A stretch of DNA of 36,176 bases from assembly GCA_017555595.1 (NCBI GenBank), contig JAFZGC010000138.1, forward strand, positions 1 through 36,176, written 5' to 3'. The stretch is from Paludibacteraceae bacterium (GTDB taxonomy: Bacteria > Bacteroidota > Bacteroidia > Bacteroidales > Paludibacteraceae). The position numbers and the translations under genes are program-made. Positions 11,544-33,207 of the stretch are shown one piece after another. The notes beneath the pieces are model-generated. The model was not told where the DNA came from. It did not search any database and saw nothing but the letters and a program-made list of their open reading frames with translations. How positions within the stretch are numbered: position 1 is the stretch's first letter; every line of letters begins with the position of its first letter.

Positions 11544-11611
11544 TACAAAGTACTAAAAGTATTGTAAAAACAATAGCAAATATAGTTTTTTCTATTTTTT
11601 TTTCAAAAATA

Positions 11612-11643
11612 TTTGGTCATGTCAAAAAAAAGCAGTACCTTTG
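11612..11643 (+). promoter_or_regulatory. Promoter of tRNA-His
   Basis: TTTG at 11612-11615, a 20-base spacer and TACCTTTG at 11636-11643. The start point would be near 11650, giving about 60 bases of leader before the tRNA, with a small GCGC/GCGC hairpin near 11698-11708. Confidence 0.85.
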
Positions 11644-26382: not shown

Positions 26383-26414
26383 TTTGGTAGTTTCAGAAAA
26401 TATTAGTACCTTTG
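26383..26414 (+). promoter_or_regulatory. Promoter of the steroid-reductase operon
   Basis: TTTG at 26383-26386, a 20-base spacer and TACCTTTG at 26407-26414, full consensus. The leader is about 28 bases. No regulator gene is adjacent. Confidence 0.88.
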
Positions 26415-26448: not shown

Positions 26449-27249
26449 ATGGAAATATCTACTCTTGATTCATTTTATAACTTCTTATTTATCCTTAGTC
26501 TTGTTGGCTTGGTAATTTTTGTGGCATTGTACTTTGTGGATGCTGGTTATGGCAAGATGCGTACCGAGAAGTGGGGACCAGCTATTAATAATAAGGTGGG
26601 GTGGTGTCTAATGGAGATGCCAGTGTTTTTTGTAATGCTATATTTGTGGGCAAAGTCTGATGTGAAATTTCAGTTGCCTTATTTGGTGTTTTTCTTGATA
26701 TTCCAATTCCACTATTTTCAGCGGTCATTTATCTTCCCATTTCTTCTCAAGGGAAATAGTAAAATGCCTCTTGCGATAATGGGTATGTCAGTGATATGGA
26801 ATCTGTTAAATGGTTATATACAAGGCTATTGGCTTTTCCATCTCGCGCCTCATTGTATAAAAGAAGGTATTATTCCTAATATCTATTCAGTAGATTGGCT
26901 TGCCGATTGGCGTTTCATACTTGGTGTGACTATATTCTTCCTTGGTTGGATCATCAATATGCACTCTGACCATGTGATTCGTCACCTGCGTAAGCCGGGC
27001 GATACCAATCACTATCTGCCTAAAAAAGGTATGTATAAATTTGTCACCAGCGCCAATTATCTAGGTGAGATCACTGAGTGGCTTGGCTTTTCTATTCTGA
27101 CATGGTCATGGGCAGGATTGAGCTTCTTCTGGTTCTCTTGCTGTAACCTCGTTCCTCGTGCGAACTCCATCTATCATCGTTATGAGAAAGAATTTGCCAG
27201 TGAATTCGACAAAAAGAAACTCAAACGCATAATACCGTTTATATATTAA
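26449..27249 (+). CDS. Steroid 5-alpha-reductase family protein (3-oxo-5-alpha-steroid 4-dehydrogenase)
   Basis: An integral membrane NADPH-dependent reductase of 266 residues with about seven hydrophobic segments. It matches animal SRD5A enzymes at the key sites. E56 in LMEMPVF aligns with SRD5A2 E57 (QELPAF) and Y89 in HYFQRSF with Y91, the pair that holds the 3-keto group. NADPH-site residues fit N170 and D174 (NMHSDHVIRHLRKPGD), N203 and E207 (SANYLGEITEW) and Y242 after PRA. Expected reaction: reduction of a delta4 double bond of 3-oxo steroids or bile acids to the 5-alpha (allo) product. It is first in a plus-strand run with a flavin reductase 47 bases downstream, then a short-chain dehydrogenase. 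Leucine codons are mostly TTG and CTT. The native substrate is inferred. Confidence 0.9.
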   Translation: MEISTLDSFYNFLFILSLVGLVIFVALYFVDAGYGKMRTEKWGPAINNKVGWCLMEMPVFFVMLYLWAKSDVKFQLPYLVFFLIFQFHYFQRSFIFPFLLKGNSKMPLAIMGMSVIWNLLNGYIQGYWLFHLAPHCIKEGIIPNIYSVDWLADWRFILGVTIFFLGWIINMHSDHVIRHLRKPGDTNHYLPKKGMYKFVTSANYLGEITEWLGFSILTWSWAGLSFFWFSCCNLVPRANSIYHRYEKEFASEFDKKKLKRIIPFIY

Positions 27250-27256
27250 TGATTTA

Positions 27257-27277
27257 GGAATCCAGATGTTGGACTCC
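27257..27277 (+). other. Small hairpin between the 5-alpha-reductase and flavin reductase genes
   Basis: GGAATCCA at 27257-27264 can pair with TGGACTCC at 27270-27277, with one mismatch and a 5-base loop. No uridine run follows, so it is more likely an mRNA stability or processing element than a terminator. Confidence 0.4.
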
Positions 27278-27296
27278 CAATAACCGAAATACAATA

Positions 27297-28538
27297 ATGA
27301 GTAACCTTCTCTTCACCGAGCATAAACTCGGTCCTATCACTTTGCGTAACCGCGCTATCCGTAGTGCCGCTTTTGAGAACATGGCATACGGCAATAAACC
27401 AAGTCAAGATCTCTATAACTATCATACAGCTGTAGCCCGTGGTGGTGCAGCTATGACTACAGTAGCCTACTGCTCTGTGACACGCTCGGGTGTGTCCTTC
27501 GATGGCCAACTCTATATCCACGATGAGATCAAAGAGGATCTAAAGAAACTTACCGACGGTATTCATGCTGAAGGAGCAAAGGCTAGTATTCAGCTTGGTC
27601 ACTGCGGTAATATGACCCACTTCTATACCTGCGATTGTTTGCCAGTAGGTGCAAGCACAGGTTTCAACCTCTATTCGCCAACCCTCCACCGAGCGCTCAA
27701 GAAAGACGAAATCAAGGAGATCGTTAAGGCTTTCGGTCACGCTGTGGACTTCTGCCGCGAGTGTGGCTTTGACTGCGTAGAGATTCACGCGGGTCACGGC
27801 TATCTCATCTCGCAATTCCTTTCTCCATACACCAACCGCCGTCGCGATGAGTACGGAGGTTCGCTCGAGAACCGTATGCGCTTCATGAACGAGGTGATGG
27901 CTGAGGTTATGGAGCACGCAGGCGACGATATGGCTGTGGTGGTGAAGACTAATATGTACGACGGATTCAAGTCTGGTCTCAAAGTTGAGGAGTGCATCCG
28001 CATCGCCCAAGAGATCGAGAAACACGGTGTTCACGCGCTCGTCCTCACCGCAGGCTTCGTGAGCAAAGCACCTTTCACCGTCATGGGTGGTGCCATGCCA
28101 ATCAAGACCCTCGCGCACTACATGAACCCTTGGTCTTTCTGGTGGCTGCGCCTTGCATTGCGCTTCGTAGGTCATTTGATGATCCCTACTGTGCCATTCA
28201 AAGAGCTCTTCTTCCTCGATACAGCAAAACAATTCCGCAAGGCACTCAAGATGCCGCTTATCTATGTAGGTGGTGTCATGGGACGCGAGAATGCAGAGAC
28301 CGCCCTCGCAGAAGGCTTTGATTTTGTGCAGATTGGACACGCGTTGGTGCGCGATACTGACTTCGTGAATAAGATGCGCGAGGAGCAATATCACTCCGAG
28401 TGCAAACGCTCTAACTACTGCGTAGCGCGTATGTACACCATTGATATGAAGTGCCATGAGTGTGCTACCGACGTGCCTAAGTACCTCAAGAAAGAGGCAA
28501 AGAAATACGAACAAATGTGGTATCCTAATTCTAAATAA
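27297..28538 (+). CDS. Old Yellow Enzyme-type NADH:flavin oxidoreductase (probable steroid/bile-acid enone 5-beta-reductase)
   Basis: A single-domain TIM barrel of 413 residues binding FMN. Signatures: LRNRAIRSAAFENMA at the N-terminus, SIQLGHCG near 98, IHAGHGYLISQFLSPYTNRR at 163-182 with DEYGGSLENR, and the phosphate-binding YVGGVMGRENAETAL near 323. It lacks the C-terminal FAD/NADH domain of BaiCD- and 2,4-dienoyl-CoA reductase-type proteins. An iron-sulfur-like cluster of residues is C369, S372, C375 and C386 (plus C389); relatives as I recall them have cysteine at position 372. In the reported Bacteroidales bile-acid clusters an enzyme of this family is the 5-beta-reductase acting on 3-oxo-delta4 substrates, which fits the gene before it. 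Leucine codons are often CTC, unlike neighbouring genes. Function is inferred from family and context. Confidence 0.85.
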   Translation: MSNLLFTEHKLGPITLRNRAIRSAAFENMAYGNKPSQDLYNYHTAVARGGAAMTTVAYCSVTRSGVSFDGQLYIHDEIKEDLKKLTDGIHAEGAKASIQLGHCGNMTHFYTCDCLPVGASTGFNLYSPTLHRALKKDEIKEIVKAFGHAVDFCRECGFDCVEIHAGHGYLISQFLSPYTNRRRDEYGGSLENRMRFMNEVMAEVMEHAGDDMAVVVKTNMYDGFKSGLKVEECIRIAQEIEKHGVHALVLTAGFVSKAPFTVMGGAMPIKTLAHYMNPWSFWWLRLALRFVGHLMIPTVPFKELFFLDTAKQFRKALKMPLIYVGGVMGRENAETALAEGFDFVQIGHALVRDTDFVNKMREEQYHSECKRSNYCVARMYTIDMKCHECATDVPKYLKKEAKKYEQMWYPNSK

Positions 28539-28546
28539 TTACTTGT

Positions 28547-28592
28547 TCCTTCCTTGTTAATTTCGAGACAAACACGGCAACGACAGGAAGGA
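28547..28592 (+). other. Intercistronic inverted repeat before the dehydrogenase gene
   Basis: TCCTTCCTTGT at 28547-28557 pairs with ACAGGAAGGA at 28583-28592 with one bulged base, in the 87-base gap between the flavin reductase and the dehydrogenase. Pairing continues weakly outward (AATTACTTG against TAAGGAATT). There is no following uridine run. Confidence 0.45.
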
Positions 28593-28625
28593 TTACTAAG
28601 GAATTATAAAGACAACTTCGAAACT

Positions 28626-29453
28626 ATGTTAGCATTAGTAACTGGCGCATCATCGGGTATTGGCCTGCAATATGCCACCCAACTCGCGCGCGATTATCAT
28701 ACTGATCTTCTGTTGGTTAGCAACCAAGAGGAGGAACAAAAGCAGGTAGCTGCTGACTTGGCAGCTAAGTATGGCGTAAAGACTATTCCGCTCTATGCAG
28801 ATCTCTCCAAGCAAGACGCAGCAGAGCAACTGCTTCAATACTGCAAGGACAATAACCTCGTGGTGGATATCCTCATCAACAATGCAGGTGTATTCTTCTT
28901 CAATCCTTATTGCGAGACCAGCATGAAGCGCATTGATCTTATGCTCAACTTGCACATGATTACAGTGGCGAAGCTCACTCGTCTTTTTGGCGAGGAGATG
29001 ATCAACCGCCAACTCACTGAGGAGGAGAAAGCGCAAAAACTTTGTGGCAAACCACGCCAAAAAGGCTATATCCTCAATATGTCGTCCATGTCTGCTTGGA
29101 TGGCAATGCCAGGTATTCAAACCTACAATGCCACTAAGGCATTTATCTATAATTTCTCCAAGTCTCTCTGGTATGAGCTCAAATCTAAGGGCGTGAATAT
29201 CACCGTAATGACTCCAGGAGCAGTAGATACCGAACTCTTTGGCTTAGCGCCTCACTTGCGCCGTTTGGCGGTGAACTTGACCGTGGCTATTCCACCAGAG
29301 AAACTAGTGAAACGTGCTCTCAAAAAGATGTTCCGTGGCAAAAAAGCCGACATGCCAGGTGTGATCAATTATCTTTGTACTCCATTGCTCAAACACACCC
29401 CAGACTGGCTCGTATTCCTCGCCATGCGCTTCATTGGCAAGTATCAGAAATAA
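28626..29453 (+). CDS. Short-chain dehydrogenase/reductase (probable hydroxysteroid dehydrogenase)
   Basis: A 275-residue classical SDR from the ATG at 28626. The cofactor motif TGASSGIG is at 6-13, NNAG at 85-88, and the catalytic residues are S154, Y167 and K171 (YNATK) with [10 protein letters not shown] after them. Aspartate or asparagine choice near residue 33 (SNQEEEQ) does not clearly tell NADH from NADPH. The frame is open upstream to 28554, but that region contains the intercistronic hairpin. By position behind the 5-alpha- and 5-beta-type reductases it is the best candidate for the 3-beta-hydroxysteroid dehydrogenase that reduces the 3-oxo group (for example to isoallolithocholate). 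SDR specificity cannot be read from sequence alone, so a fatty-acyl or other alcohol substrate is possible. Confidence 0.85.
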
Positions 29454-29485: not shown

Positions 29486-30589
29486 ATGAAAACCGCTCTT
29501 ATCACAGGTGTAACGGGTCAAGATGGCTCGTACTTGGCAGAATTTCTCTTAGACAAAGGCTATGATGTGCATGGCATCATCCGTCGTAGTTCAGTGGACT
29601 ATCGCGAGCGTATTGCGCATCTCGAGGGTAAAGAACATTTTCATTTGCACTATGGCGATATGTCTGACTCTATGGGGTTGATTCAGGTGATTGGCAAGGT
29701 TCGTCCAGATGAGATATACAACTTGGCAGCGCAAAGCCATGTACAGGTGTCGTTTGACTCGCCTGAGTTTACTGCCGATATTGATGCTACGGGCGTTTTG
29801 CGCGTATTGGAGGCAGTGCGTGCTTGTGGACTAGCAGATACATGCCGCATTTATCAAGCCTCTACTTCGGAGTTGTATGGCAAGGTGGAGGAGGTTCCTC
29901 AAAATGAGAACACCCCATTCCACCCATATTCACCTTATGCAGTAGCAAAACTCTATGGTTATTGGATTGTAAAGGAGTATCGCGAGGCATATAACATGTT
30001 CTGCTGCTCGGGTATCTTGTTCAATCACGAGTCAGAGCGCCGTGGTGAGACTTTTGTTACTCGTAAAATCACATTGGCAGCTGCTCGCATTGCACAGGGC
30101 AAACAAGATAAACTGTATTTGGGTAACTTGTCATCGCTCCGTGATTGGGGATATGCGAAGGACTATGTAGAGTGTATGTGGTTGATATTGCAACACGAAA
30201 CGCCAGAGGATTTTGTGATTGCTACAGGCGAGCAACACTCAGTGCGTGAGTTCTGTGATTTGGCATTCCGTGAGGTGGGCATTACTTTGGAGTTCCGTGG
30301 CGAGGACGCCGAAGAGAAGGGTGTGTGCGTTGCAGGTCCTGATCATTTGATAGGCAAGACTCTGATTGAGGTGTCGCCAGACTTCTACCGTCCAACGGAT
30401 GTGGTGAACTTGTGGGGTGATCCTACCAAGGCGAAGAAAGCATTGGGATGGAATCCATCGAAGACTACTTTTGAGGAGTTGGTTCGTTTGATGGTACGCC
30501 ATGATATGCAAAAGGTGGCTGCTGACCATGCTGCGGAGCAAGCACGCGTGAACCTCGCTGAATATCTCGAACGAGGAATAGTGAAGTAA
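29486..30589 (+). CDS. gmd: GDP-mannose 4,6-dehydratase
   Basis: It converts GDP-D-mannose to GDP-4-keto-6-deoxy-D-mannose, the first step to GDP-L-fucose. The 367 residues from ATG 29486 begin [20 protein letters not shown], the NADP-binding motif. Catalytic residues are T127, E129 (STSELYG), Y151 and K155 ([10 protein letters not shown]). The conserved [20 protein letters not shown] and [20 protein letters not shown] follow. An in-frame extension upstream would include the repeat and the end of the dehydrogenase and is rejected. It lies 2 bases before fcl. Confidence 0.96.
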
Positions 30590-30591
30590 GT

Positions 30592-31533
30592 ATGGAAAAG
30601 ACTTCAAAAATTTATGTCGCAGGTCACCGTGGCATGGTGGGTAGTGCCATCGTGCGCGAGTTGGAGCGTCAGGGCTATACCAATATTATTACGCGTACGC
30701 ACGCACAATTGGATTTGTGCCGTCAGCAGGCGGTGGAAGACTTCTTTGCTGCGGAGCTGCCAGAGTATGTGTTTTTGGCTGCGGCTAAAGTAGGTGGTAT
30801 TATTGCTAACCAGTCGGCATTGGCAGATTTCATGTACGACAACATGATTATGGAGATGAATGTTATTCATGCAGCTTGGCAGAATAATTGCAAAAAACTC
30901 CTGTTCTTAGGATCGAGTTGTATCTATCCTCGTTTGGCACCTCAACCTATGAAAGAGAGTTGCTTGTTGACCAGCGAACTGGAGAAGACCAACGAGGCGT
31001 ATGCGTTGGCAAAGATTTCGGGCCTGAAGTACTGCGAGTATTTGAATCGCCAATACGGAACGGATTATATCTCAGTAATGCCAACCAATCTTTATGGTCC
31101 TAACGATAACTATCACCTTGAGCATTCACACGTATTGCCAGCATTGATTCGCCGCTTCCACGAAGCGAAGGAGAGTGGGGTAGATACTGTGACTTGTTGG
31201 GGTGATGGATCACCACTTCGTGAGTTCTTGTATGTGGACGATTTGGCTAACTTGTGTGTGTTCTTGATGAACAACTATTCGGGTAACGAGACTGTTAATG
31301 CAGGTTCGGGTAAAGAACTGACGATTAAGGCTTTGACTGAATTGGTGGCGAAAGTAGTAGGCTATAAAGGTCACATTGAGTGGGACACCACCCGCCCAAA
31401 TGGTACACCACGCAAATTACTGGATGTATCAAAGGCGAAGGCATTGGGCTGGACTTATCGCACCGAGTTGGAAGATGGTATTCGCATGGCATACGATGAC
31501 TTTTTGAATAACCCTATGCGAGCGGAGCGATAG
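30592..31533 (+). CDS. fcl: GDP-L-fucose synthase
   Basis: A bifunctional epimerase and reductase that turns GDP-4-keto-6-deoxymannose into GDP-L-fucose with NADPH. The 313 residues have YVAGHRGMVGSAI near the N-terminus, the GSSCIYP loop (S108/S109 and C110), and Y137 with K141 in NEAYALAKISG. The later VMPTNLYGPNDNYH and SPLREFLYVDDLA also fit. It follows gmd by 2 bases and ends the plus-strand run. GDP-fucose is used in Bacteroidales for capsule and glycoprotein fucosylation. A bidirectional terminator follows. Confidence 0.96.
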   Translation: MEKTSKIYVAGHRGMVGSAIVRELERQGYTNIITRTHAQLDLCRQQAVEDFFAAELPEYVFLAAAKVGGIIANQSALADFMYDNMIMEMNVIHAAWQNNCKKLLFLGSSCIYPRLAPQPMKESCLLTSELEKTNEAYALAKISGLKYCEYLNRQYGTDYISVMPTNLYGPNDNYHLEHSHVLPALIRRFHEAKESGVDTVTCWGDGSPLREFLYVDDLANLCVFLMNNYSGNETVNAGSGKELTIKALTELVAKVVGYKGHIEWDTTRPNGTPRKLLDVSKAKALGWTYRTELEDGIRMAYDDFLNNPMRAER

Positions 31534-31622: not shown

Positions 31623-33044
31623 TTATTCCTGTGGGCAGGCGCCGTCGAAGCAGTAGGTGCAGACGCGGTCTTTAGGGAGGCCGATGGCGGCGATGAGGTC
31701 CTCAATCTTGGTGTATTTGAGCGACTTGAGGGCGAAGCGGTCACGCAAGGCACGGATCATGCGTTGGTACTCCAAGGAGTCGGTTGTCGCATATGCCTTG
31801 ATACGCTCAGGGTTGTTGGCTGCCTCTTCGCCCTCCAAATCTGCAATGATGCGGCGGGTGATGAGCTCCATATCCGACTTCGAGGTGGTGAAGTTGGTAA
31901 ATGGACAGCCATACATGATCGGTGGGCAAGCGATACGCATATGTACATCCTTGGCTCCTGCTTCCAATAGGCAACGGGTGTTGTCGCGGAGTTGTGTGCC
32001 ACGCACGATTGAGTCGTCGCAGAAGAGGATACTCTTGCCACGCAGGATAGCGTAGTTATGGATGATCTTCATCTTAGCGACAAGGTCGCGTGTAGCTTGT
32101 TGCGATGGGGTGAAGGAACGTGGCCATGTAGGCGTATATTTGGTGATGGCGCGTTGGTAAGGCACACCCGAAGTGTGGGAGTAACCAATCGCCATAGCAA
32201 TACCTGAATCAGGAATACCGCAGACGATATCGGCTTTTGCATCGTCGCTCTTACCCATAGCATGACCACACGCATAGCGTACTTGCTCCACATTGCGACC
32301 TTCGTAGTCGGAAGTAGGGAAGCCGTAATACACCCAAAGGAAAGAGCAAATCTGCATCTTCTCATTGGGCTTGCGCAGTTGCTCTACACGGTCAGCATAC
32401 ACGCGTACAATCTCGCCAGGACCGAGGAAATACTCGGTTTGGAAGCCGAGATTGAAGAACGAGGATGACTCGCTGGCAATCGCATAAGCATTATCACGTT
32501 TACCTAATACAATAGGTGTGCGTCCCCATGAGTCGCGGGCTGCAATGATGCCGTCTTCGGTGAGGATGAGGATTGAACAAGAGCCCTTGATATGTCGATA
32601 TACATTCTCGATGCCATCTACAAAGTCTTTGCCTTGCACGATGAGCAAACCGACTAATTCTGTGGGGTTTACGCGTCCACTACTAAACTCGGAAAGGTGC
32701 ACTTTTTGTTCGAGCAAGTGGGCAACCAAATCGTCTTGGTTGTTGATCTTGCCAATGGTGCTGATTGCAAAGCGACCGAGGTGCGAATTGATGAGTAGTG
32801 GCTGTGCATCGGTATCGGAGATGATACCAATGCCCGCGTTGCCACTGAACTCGTCCAACTCGTGTTCGAACTTCGTGCGGAAGTGTGAGTTGGAGATATT
32901 GTGGATGCTTCGTTTGAAGCCATTCTCCTTGTCGAAGGTTGCCATACCCGCACGGCGTGTACCGAGATGGGAATGGTAGTCGGTGCCGTAGAAGACATCG
33001 GTCACGCAAGAAGTCGTAGATATTGTACCAAAAAATCCAGCCAT
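31623..33044 (-). CDS. PurF-like amidophosphoribosyltransferase paralogue lacking the glutaminase cysteine
   Basis: The 473-residue product aligns with glutamine phosphoribosylpyrophosphate amidotransferase, the first enzyme of purine synthesis. The start is MAGFFG: the N-terminal nucleophile cysteine that follows Met in true Ntn glutaminases is alanine, and the HNGN-type oxyanion region reads KINNQDD. The C-terminal transferase half is intact, with the PRPP loop LFCDDSIVRGTQ near 340-351 and FTPSQQATRD. The four cysteines expected to hold the 4Fe-4S cluster in the Bacillus-type enzyme fit C233, C373 or C380, C462 and C465. The frame extends 18 codons upstream without an ATG likely to be used. 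Context (purC and purM upstream, same strand) supports a purine role, perhaps ammonia-dependent or regulatory, with a normal PurF elsewhere. Confidence 0.82.
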   Translation of the reverse strand: MAGFFGTISTTSCVTDVFYGTDYHSHLGTRRAGMATFDKENGFKRSIHNISNSHFRTKFEHELDEFSGNAGIGIISDTDAQPLLINSHLGRFAISTIGKINNQDDLVAHLLEQKVHLSEFSSGRVNPTELVGLLIVQGKDFVDGIENVYRHIKGSCSILILTEDGIIAARDSWGRTPIVLGKRDNAYAIASESSSFFNLGFQTEYFLGPGEIVRVYADRVEQLRKPNEKMQICSFLWVYYGFPTSDYEGRNVEQVRYACGHAMGKSDDAKADIVCGIPDSGIAMAIGYSHTSGVPYQRAITKYTPTWPRSFTPSQQATRDLVAKMKIIHNYAILRGKSILFCDDSIVRGTQLRDNTRCLLEAGAKDVHMRIACPPIMYGCPFTNFTTSKSDMELITRRIIADLEGEEAANNPERIKAYATTDSLEYQRMIRALRDRFALKSLKYTKIEDLIAAIGLPKDRVCTYCFDGACPQE

Positions 33045-33080
33045 GTTTTTATTGTCTATAACAACAACGATGATTATTTT

Positions 33081-33207
33081 ATCCAACAACTTAAACAACT
33101 TAATCCAACAACTTGCGCGGCAATCAACTTCCTGCCGCGCTCTGCGGTTATTTTCCTTGCCGCTCGCAATGTTGGCGAGCGGAATGTTGTTGAAAATAAT
33201 GTTGTTG
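33081..33207. repeat. Repeat-rich leader of the PurF-like gene with two GC-rich hairpins
   Basis: The 184-base gap between purC and the PurF-like gene contains ATCCAACAACTT twice (33081-33092 and 33103-33114). A hairpin GCGCGGCA/TGCCGCGC lies at 33115-33140 and another, CCGCTCGC/GCGAGCGG, at 33160-33182. AATGTTGTTG occurs twice (33183-33192 and 33198-33207). CAACAAC at one end and GTTGTTG at the other are inverted. No TAnnTTTG promoter was found here. It may be a mobile repeat or a control element in the mRNA. Confidence 0.65.

Follow-up and report, generated by a model that had tools for sequence, protein, structure and literature searches.

The genome of an uncultured Paludibacteraceae bacterium harbours a cassette of three genes, whose products are a membrane reductase of the SRD5A type (AR), a flavoenzyme of the Old-Yellow-Enzyme type (OYE) and a short-chain dehydrogenase (SDR1). 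Judged from their sequences, we lean towards viewing these as enzymes that act in succession to turn host-derived 3-oxo steroids of bent (5-beta) shape, with secondary bile acids as the likeliest substrates, into flat (5-alpha) counterparts, with a 3-oxo-allo or a 3-alpha-hydroxy allo acid and not an isoallo acid as end product. The cluster type itself is known from gut relatives. Its third enzyme in the window is of a different SDR type, and the end product is thus likely not isoallolithocholate as first proposed.

Gene layout and distribution of the cassette

The cassette is part of the window, by which we refer to the entire analysed stretch of 36,176 nucleotides, and is organized together with its surroundings as follows:

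26383-26414, plus strand: promoter-like site of the Bacteroidota type (TTTG-20 nt-TACCTTTG)
26449-27249, plus strand: AR, 266 residues, ATG start, SRD5A-type membrane 5-alpha-reductase on the basis of PF02544, PDB matches and conserved residues
27297-28538, plus strand: OYE, 413 residues, ATG start, single-domain Old-Yellow-Enzyme-type flavoenzyme, presumed 5-beta-reductase or Delta4-forming enzyme
28626-29453, plus strand: SDR1, 275 residues from ATG, short-chain dehydrogenase, presumed hydroxysteroid dehydrogenase
29486-30589: gmd, separate open reading frame starting 32 bases past the SDR1 stop
30592-31533: fcl, separate open reading frame

The three neighbouring plus-strand genes described in the initial annotation are all present as open reading frames at 26449-29453, with OYE located immediately downstream of AR on the same strand after a gap of 47 bases and with an alternative TTG start for SDR1 at 28554. 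The promoter proposed ahead of AR corresponds to a candidate site that is one of six in the window following a consensus which we take to be a Bacteroidota promoter type (0.76 sites expected, six reached in none of 100 shuffles). The three genes are presumably co-transcribed. A fusion with downstream GDP-fucose genes, which had also been suggested, is not found, as gmd and fcl are separate reading frames, and of all loci seen it is the window alone in which they lie next to the cassette. Both genes and a relA/spoT homologue are absent from the fetched stretches (3-14 kb) of all other 119 tabulated cassette loci, five of which are repeats, and none of the cassette-adjacent genes of the window recurs beside the other cassettes compared (19 loci of the family and two others). 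With separate genes that are found in the fetched stretches of none of the other 119 loci, we have rejected a functional link between the cassette and the GDP-fucose genes.

AR-OYE-SDR is a conserved Bacteroidales module of the 5AR-5BR type and of a kind already known. The initial assignment to a cluster type of gut Bacteroidales is borne out by identities of 53-57% for AR and 56-60% for OYE to the positional counterparts in loci of Parabacteroides, Odoribacter, Sanguibacteroides, Bacteroides and Phocaeicola, where P. massiliensis and other members of its genus stand in for P. merdae. The gene order, thought to be possibly new, is common, since OYE resides downstream of AR in 62 of the 69 named loci that are long enough to judge. 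On the level of the order, both genes are adjacent in 15/15 loci of the AR class of the window compared to 0/14 of a more distant class, and on the level of the family in 75 of 88 AR loci, with cut contigs among the 13 that lack this adjacency. The cassette is patchy, with any AR match found in 98 of 200 family genomes. With respect to a placement of all three proteins outside the bile-acid clades, the trees are mixed, in that OYE and SDR1 fall into clades of mostly Paludibacteraceae and other Bacteroidales which are sister to clades of gut genera.

The 5AR-5BR-3-beta-HSDH cluster of Parabacteroides merdae and the Odoribacteraceae was reportedly described by Sato and colleagues in 2021. It shares with the window a same-direction arrangement of AR followed by a single-domain OYE and an SDR. 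According to the accessible text of PMC10382948, the 5AR of P. merdae has a BaiCD/BaiH-like flavin oxidoreductase and a predicted 3-beta-HSDH as cluster partners, and disruption of this 5AR abolishes allo-lithocholate derivatives. BaiP and BaiJ of Firmicutes, allo-bile-acid 5-alpha-reductases with the same proposed reaction as AR, are reported in the accessible part of PMC9645264 as distinct from the membrane 5AR of Bacteroidetes. A literature search for 5-alpha-reductases in Paludibacteraceae found nothing within its reach, which excluded most subscription papers, and among the matches listed for gene clusters of rumen Bacteroidales there was no 5-alpha-reductase.

The membrane reductase and the flavoenzyme

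AR matches the Pfam family PF02544 (Steroid_dh) with 137.9 bits (3.4e-40), passing the cut-off of 22.6, and is the sole match to this family in its genome, while no NCBIfam family matches the protein. Among PDB entries, it aligns with 7c83 at an E-value of 6e-52 and with human SRD5A2 (7bw1) at 4e-41. The proposed substrate pair E56/Y89 is kept and aligns with E57/Y91 of SRD5A2, with both columns being invariant in the 18 sequences of alignment A1. In SRD5A2, these residues constitute the catalytic Glu/Tyr pair (PMC7591894, accessible text). The claimed conservation of NADPH residues holds for most but not all positions, because N160, D164, R171, N193, E197, W201 and R227 of SRD5A2 are identical in AR, whereas six others (R105, R114, F118, Y178, R179 and Y235) are changed. 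Apart from E57, Y91, R114, R171 and R227, the compared positions are presumed cofactor residues. AR thus shares the sequence family, the catalytic pair and most core NADPH residues with human SRD5A2 and bacterial 7c83, but differs from the human enzyme in the distal part of the steroid pocket, where R114 is replaced by M113 and F118 by W117. We predict AR to be a steroid 5-alpha-reductase of the SRD5A type.

The identification of the second gene as an Old-Yellow-Enzyme reductase is confirmed by its match to PF00724 (193.6 bits, 7.4e-57) and by a His/His/Tyr motif in the active site (H164-A-G-H167-G-Y169). H164, H167, Y169, C369, C375 and C386 are each found in 101/101 aligned cassette OYEs, whereas C389 is present in 36/36 proteins of the clade of the window and a histidine takes its place in 40 of 65 others. 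The protein model is nearest to TMADH and 2-naphthoyl-CoA reductase over residues 1-413, and the C-terminal cysteines, candidate [4Fe-4S] ligands, are spaced as C-x5-C-x10-C, which we take to be unlike the [4Fe-4S] ligand spacing of FadH/TMADH. The top NCBIfam match is BaiCD, with 200.6 bits against a cut-off of 825 and a best stretch covering positions 3-256 of 642, and the cut-off is reached for 0/10 matching families. OYE shares the barrel and the invariant C-terminal cysteines with BaiCD, a Clostridial 5-beta-reductase, but differs in its cysteine spacing, and it is shorter (413 residues, ending with a stop at 28536-28538, compared to 642 in the BaiCD model) and devoid of the C-terminal FAD/NAD(P)H domain. 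Another Clostridial 5-beta-reductase, ci2350 of C. innocuum, shares the barrel with OYE, going by its description (PMC12238238, accessible text).

In the OYE tree, the window groups with L161, L162 and L164 apart from 16 loci sharing their AR clade (20 rows, AR support 99/98). A replacement of OYE within the genus was considered but not adopted, as an AU test does not reject a single OYE clade (p 0.206) and faster divergence is therefore an equally good account.

The third enzyme and the presumed end product

SDR1 contains the assigned Ser-Tyr-Lys triad (S153/S154, Y167 and K171 in ATG numbering), which is invariant in 26/26 aligned SDR1 proteins. Its model resembles hydroxysteroid dehydrogenases, and no NCBIfam cut-off is reached among the 25 listed of 207 matching families. 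To our knowledge, there is no sequence rule for C3 position or beta stereochemistry in SDRs. The cassette is occupied by two unrelated SDR types, SDR1 in the window and SDR2 in Parabacteroides, the latter being alignable to SDR1 over at most 94 residues (27%; 31% over 42) and placed on the opposite half of the SDR tree. SDR1 is thus no orthologue of SDR2, contrary to the reading of the third gene as a Parabacteroides-type 3-beta-HSDH. In the genome of the window as assembled (89% complete), we found no good match to SDR2, the best showing 26% identity, and an SDR1-only cassette need therefore not make isoallo acids. A paralogue of SDR1 elsewhere in the genome (G000:C48, 45%) could supply another stereochemistry.

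In the proposed mechanism, a hydroxysteroid dehydrogenase would oxidise the C3 hydroxyl to open the path, and OYE would use its FMN to shuttle the steroid between the 3-oxo-5-beta and 3-oxo-Delta4 states. AR would then transfer a hydride from NADPH to the alpha face, with E56/Y89 holding the C3 carbonyl, thereby locking the flat form, whose C3 ketone would be reduced by SDR1. The genes, their residues, the conservation of the cassette and the lack of SDR2 in the assembly are seen directly, and we infer substrate, direction, stereochemistry and co-transcription from them.

The final product is likely a 3-oxo-allo or a 3-alpha-hydroxy allo acid because the window is devoid of the SDR2 of genera with reported isoallolithocholate production. 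These genera, or near ones, carry SDR2 at cassette loci, a match by genus and not by the tested strains, for which B. dorei is counted under its current genus, Phocaeicola. Isoallolithocholate as product and SDR1 as its '3-beta-HSDH' are both doubtful here, because the reported makers, P. merdae, O. laneus and B. dorei (PMC10382948, accessible text), belong to SDR2-bearing genera. In Table 1 of PMC12692668, A. onderdonkii figures solely as a 5AR carrier that gives 3-oxo-allo, and 3-oxo-allo is likewise the sole product entered for B. theta. The latter entry runs against the SDR2 rule, as the Bacteroides loci in our set carry SDR2.

A full 5AR-5BR-3-beta-HSDH pathway leading to isoallolithocholate, with SDR1 as the 3-beta-HSDH, appears unlikely to us. 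It would account for the same AR-OYE-SDR gene order and the hydroxysteroid-dehydrogenase-like appearance of the SDR1 model, and it gains from loci of Odoribacter and Sanguibacteroides that contain SDR1 beside SDR2, isoallo production being reported for their family, and from B. theta, which, if SDR2-bearing, would argue against SDR2 as sole isoallo mark. It conflicts with the lack of orthology between both SDRs, the absence of SDR2 from the assembled genome and the distribution of the two types. The window contains SDR1 alone and Odoribacter and Barnesiella loci both, whereas Parabacteroides, Phocaeicola and most Bacteroides carry SDR2 alone. SDR2 is found in 8/9 Parabacteroides loci, Odoribacter L065, Phocaeicola L121 and 13/13 Bacteroides-titled loci, and stands without SDR1 in 3/3 named Parabacteroides loci, 1/1 of Phocaeicola and 12/13 Bacteroides-titled ones, both types being present in L093 of the latter and in the Alistipes-titled L087. 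Conversely, 15 of 19 Alistipes-titled loci, three of which end within 2.7 kb, contain SDR1 without SDR2. The OYEs of Parabacteroides and Odoribacter loci (405-410 residues) are close in length to that of the window, which belongs to a separate clade.

A few enzymes decide which bacteria make which bile-acid isomer, and two SDR types can now be told apart in one slot of the same cassette. We would predict isoallo acids for SDR2 loci and none for SDR1-only loci, as in the genus of the window and most Alistipes-titled loci seen, and labelling every such cassette an isoallolithocholate producer could overcount producers. Flat bile acids are described in the accessible text of reviews to alter immune signalling and to inhibit Gram-positive bacteria.

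Probable bile exposure, habitat and possible alternative substrates

The genome of the window encodes a full-length bile-salt-hydrolase homologue (PDB 2bjf, E 1.2e-47), which supports an exposure of the organism to bile. Against bile acids as substrates speaks that most genomes of its own genus are devoid of a full-length version, which is found in 6/35. Cassettes also occur in the foregut upstream of the bile duct, in sheep reticulum (L115) and water buffalo abomasum (L132), where bile acids are not expected. Bile acids can thus not be the only substrate if these sample assignments are right, and other steroids are possible substrates.

It is conceivable, though in our estimate rather improbable, that the cassette chiefly serves other steroids reaching the gut, of the 3-oxo or Delta4/Delta5 kind (hormones, cholesterol products, plant sterols or sapogenins), with bile acids being secondary. 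Besides the two foregut loci, such a preference would fit L088 (RUG243), presumably of rumen origin, and L107 and L139, whose title style we take to indicate a probable digester. Smilagenin, epismilagenin and tigogenin are 5-beta and 5-alpha forms. A review on ruminant saponins describes the conversion of sapogenins to these three compounds by oxidation and reduction, its accessible text naming no enzymes (PMC10385484), and gut OYE-type 5-beta-reductases use steroid hormones (PMC12238238, accessible text). On the other side stand the bile-salt hydrolase of the genome and the published genetics of 5AR, which in the accessible text of PMC10382948 concerns bile acids. A role in own-cell lipids such as polyprenols, fatty acids or quinones, with mere resemblance to steroid enzymes, is highly improbable. 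Membrane reductases of the AR superfamily also act on polyprenols, and the superfamily includes enoyl-CoA reductases, with PDB 22of art-1 being a weak match of AR (3e-6), but AR is far nearer to 7c83 and 7bw1, and the patchy occurrence of the cassette is unlike that of an essential lipid step.

The conversion of bile acids to flat forms, which we prefer, might also be embedded in a broader and decidedly speculative scenario, in which the cassette isomerises the A/B rings of steroids in general in Bacteroidales of herbivore guts. Its older role would concern dietary plant steroids as electron acceptors, and it would provide the enzymes, not named in the saponin review, by which diosgenin-type sapogenins yield smilagenin, epismilagenin and tigogenin in ruminants. 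The lineage of the window, with its canonical H-G-Y site in OYE and its bile-salt hydrolase, would represent an offshoot that has shifted to bile acids, where SDR1 leads to 3-alpha (allo) and not 3-beta (isoallo) products.

A suggestive relationship concerns OYE residue 168, which adjoins the catalytic His/Tyr. Considering kinship, four supported independent pairs, with 1.5 agreeing on average and none opposing, do not reach significance. With kinship ignored, a bile-salt hydrolase accompanies Gly in 13 of 36 and Ala in 2 of 37 cases (Fisher P 0.0013; 15/88 loci unreadable).

Layout, conservation and catalytic residues of the cassette

The cassette in the window (26449-29453) is real, conserved and of a kind already known. 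Its three genes run in the same direction, are separated by intergenic gaps of 47 and 87 bases and are preceded as a whole by a promoter-like site (TTTG-20-TACCTTTG) upstream of the first gene:

26449-27249, plus strand, SRD5A-type membrane 5-alpha-reductase (AR)
27297-28538, plus strand, Old-Yellow-Enzyme-type flavoenzyme (OYE)
28626-29453, plus strand, window-type short-chain dehydrogenase (SDR1)

In a profile search of the genome (1.86 Mb, 89.5% complete, 147 contigs including the window), AR was the sole match found to PF02544. Across the order, 72 of 198 genomes have such a match, and in a comparison of 30 loci, comprising the window, 15 of its AR class and 14 of a distant one, OYE adjoins AR in 15/15 loci of the window's class (49-72% identity) and lies within the 1.5-kb flanks in 0/14 of the distant class (33-41% identity, one locus cut). 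Within the family, 98 of 200 genomes contain AR matches at E<=0.001, ten of them at 28-40% identity only. The same threshold identifies AR in 34 of the 35 genomes of the window's own genus, with OYE beside it in all 34 and an SDR1-type gene within the stretch examined in 31. Named genomes were surveyed in the best 80 of 560 loci, a biased sample ranked by likeness to AR from the genus of Parabacteroides massiliensis, of which 11 were cut within 3.2 kb. With SDR2 denoting an unrelated, Parabacteroides-type dehydrogenase in the same slot, the 69 judged loci contain AR-OYE-SDR1 (25), AR-OYE-SDR1-SDR2 (16), AR-OYE-SDR2 (15), AR-OYE (5), AR alone (4), AR-SDR2 (3) and AR-OYE-SDR1-SDR1 (1). In two Bacteroides-titled loci (L074, L082), SDR2 follows AR without OYE. 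The available extract of a study on chicken-caecum Bacteroidetes reports the AR gene in all isolates but two Odoribacter and one P. distasonis, so its presence varies within genera (PMC6069880).

By alignment, E56 and Y89 of AR correspond to E57 and Y91 of human SRD5A2, described in the accessible part of one report as the pair holding the C3 carbonyl of the ligand (PMC7591894), and N160, D164, R171, N193, E197, W201 and R227 of the human protein are all identical in AR. R114, a contact at the opposite end of the ligand, is replaced by M113, F118 by W117 and Y178/R179 by H188/Y189. The chemistry of AR should be steroid-like, with a far pocket that, on these residues, differs from human SRD5A2. 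The AR frame of L104 (5092-6753) and L106 stays open for a long stretch upstream, giving 554 and 702 aa, and may mark an N-terminal fusion in Alistipes or simply be a long open frame.

Elsewhere in the window, two TTTG/TAnnTTTG promoter-like sites lie back to back on opposite strands (11577-11643), and an amidophosphoribosyltransferase-like protein on the minus strand (31623-33098), scoring 188 of 350 bits and thus well below the purF cut-off, adjoins a purC-like gene.

Two dehydrogenase types and the predicted product

What is new in the window's cassette is SDR1 as the only dehydrogenase type. In a tree, SDR2 and SDR1 form separate halves of 46 and 71 rows. The SDR1 of the window shares 43-47% identity with its counterparts in Odoribacter, Sanguibacteroides, Barnesiella and Coprobacter secundus, 40% with that of Heminiphilus and about 35% with one from Alistipes, whereas alignments with SDR2 are short or reach 19-25% only. 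No good match to SDR2 was found in the window's genome as assembled (89.5% complete; best 26% identity). SDR2 is present in P. massiliensis and in 8 of 9 loci of that genus (L181-L189, L181 being the P. massiliensis locus, also L061), the ninth containing AR alone. Among the best 80 of 560 loci, AR-OYE-SDR2 is found in 3/3 Parabacteroides-titled loci and SDR2 in 13/13 titled Bacteroides (with SDR1 too in L093) and 1/1 titled Phocaeicola. In the same sample, 15 of 19 Alistipes-titled loci carry SDR1 without SDR2 (three cut within 2.7 kb), one carries both and three neither (two cut). A second SDR1-type gene of the window's genome (G000:C48:1401-2138, 45% identity to SDR1 of the window) lies outside the cassette, and two SDR1 genes are also found in L107, L164, L169, L171 and L178.

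The initial annotation had proposed a candidate operon for steroid or bile-acid reduction and likened it to clusters of gut Bacteroidales that form allo and iso bile acids such as isoallolithocholate. Its strongest part is the predicted 5-alpha reduction of a 3-oxo-Delta4 steroid, its weakest the isoallolithocholate product. As far as the available text goes, 3-oxo-Delta4-LCA is converted to isoalloLCA by P. merdae, O. laneus and B. dorei and to 3-oxo-alloLCA by twenty other Bacteroidota strains, and disruption of the 5AR of P. merdae prevents allo products (PMC10382948). A second source, equally in excerpt, lists A. onderdonkii, P. goldsteinii and B. theta as 5AR carriers with 3-oxo-alloLCA as product (PMC12692668). 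In the simplest reading, which matches at the level of genera rather than tested strains, SDR2 would be the 3-beta-hydroxysteroid dehydrogenase, and SDR1 would act as a hydroxysteroid dehydrogenase with a different stereochemistry or target position. This assignment of SDR2 fits B. theta poorly if that species carries SDR2 like the Bacteroides loci found here.

Phylogeny of OYE and AR

A supported branch of the OYE tree splits 36 rows on the window's side (Paludibacteraceae, Lentimicrobiaceae and other Bacteroidales) from 65 rows comprising Parabacteroides, Bacteroides, Odoribacter, Alistipes and kin, plus two Paludibacteraceae loci (L089, L094). In the AR tree, support of 99/98 puts the window among 20 loci; 18 belong to its own genus, another to its family and the last to a different family. 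Together, these placements make the window's lineage sister to the tested enzymes rather than a branch within them.

Beside the catalytic His/Tyr, OYE residues 168 and 178 are Gly and Tyr in 81 and 74 of 101 proteins, respectively. In the majority of genomes from the window's genus (L163-L178, L164 excepted), and at further loci of the family, residue 168 is Ala and residue 178 is altered, frequently to Arg, a natural active-site change.

Possible bile exposure and other steroids

The window's genome also encodes a full-length choloylglycine hydrolase homologue (L201, E 1.9e-65) with a likely signal peptide, judged by eye:

G000:C132:19432-20373, minus strand, choloylglycine hydrolase homologue

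Among solved structures it is closest to 2bjf, the choloylglycine hydrolase of C. perfringens (E 1.2e-47), with a weaker match to 3hbc from Bacteroides (E 4.7e-20), which suggests acquisition from outside Bacteroidales. The family also includes penicillin V acylases, so bile-salt hydrolase activity of the homologue is putative. Homologues at E<1e-50 are found in 6 of the 35 genomes of the genus, namely all four with a window-type OYE (Gly168) and 2 of 30 with Ala168; the family-wide trend between residue 168 and choloylglycine hydrolase has no significance once kinship is taken in.

Among the best 80 of 560 named loci, AR and OYE occur together in sheep reticulum (L115), water buffalo abomasum (L132) and RUG243 (L088), presumably of rumen origin, and AR alone in yak rumen (L126). 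Bile is unexpected in reticulum, abomasum and rumen, and plant or other steroids thus need consideration. In the accessible portion of one article, which does not name the enzyme, sapogenin digestion in ruminants leads to reduced and epimerised products (PMC10385484).
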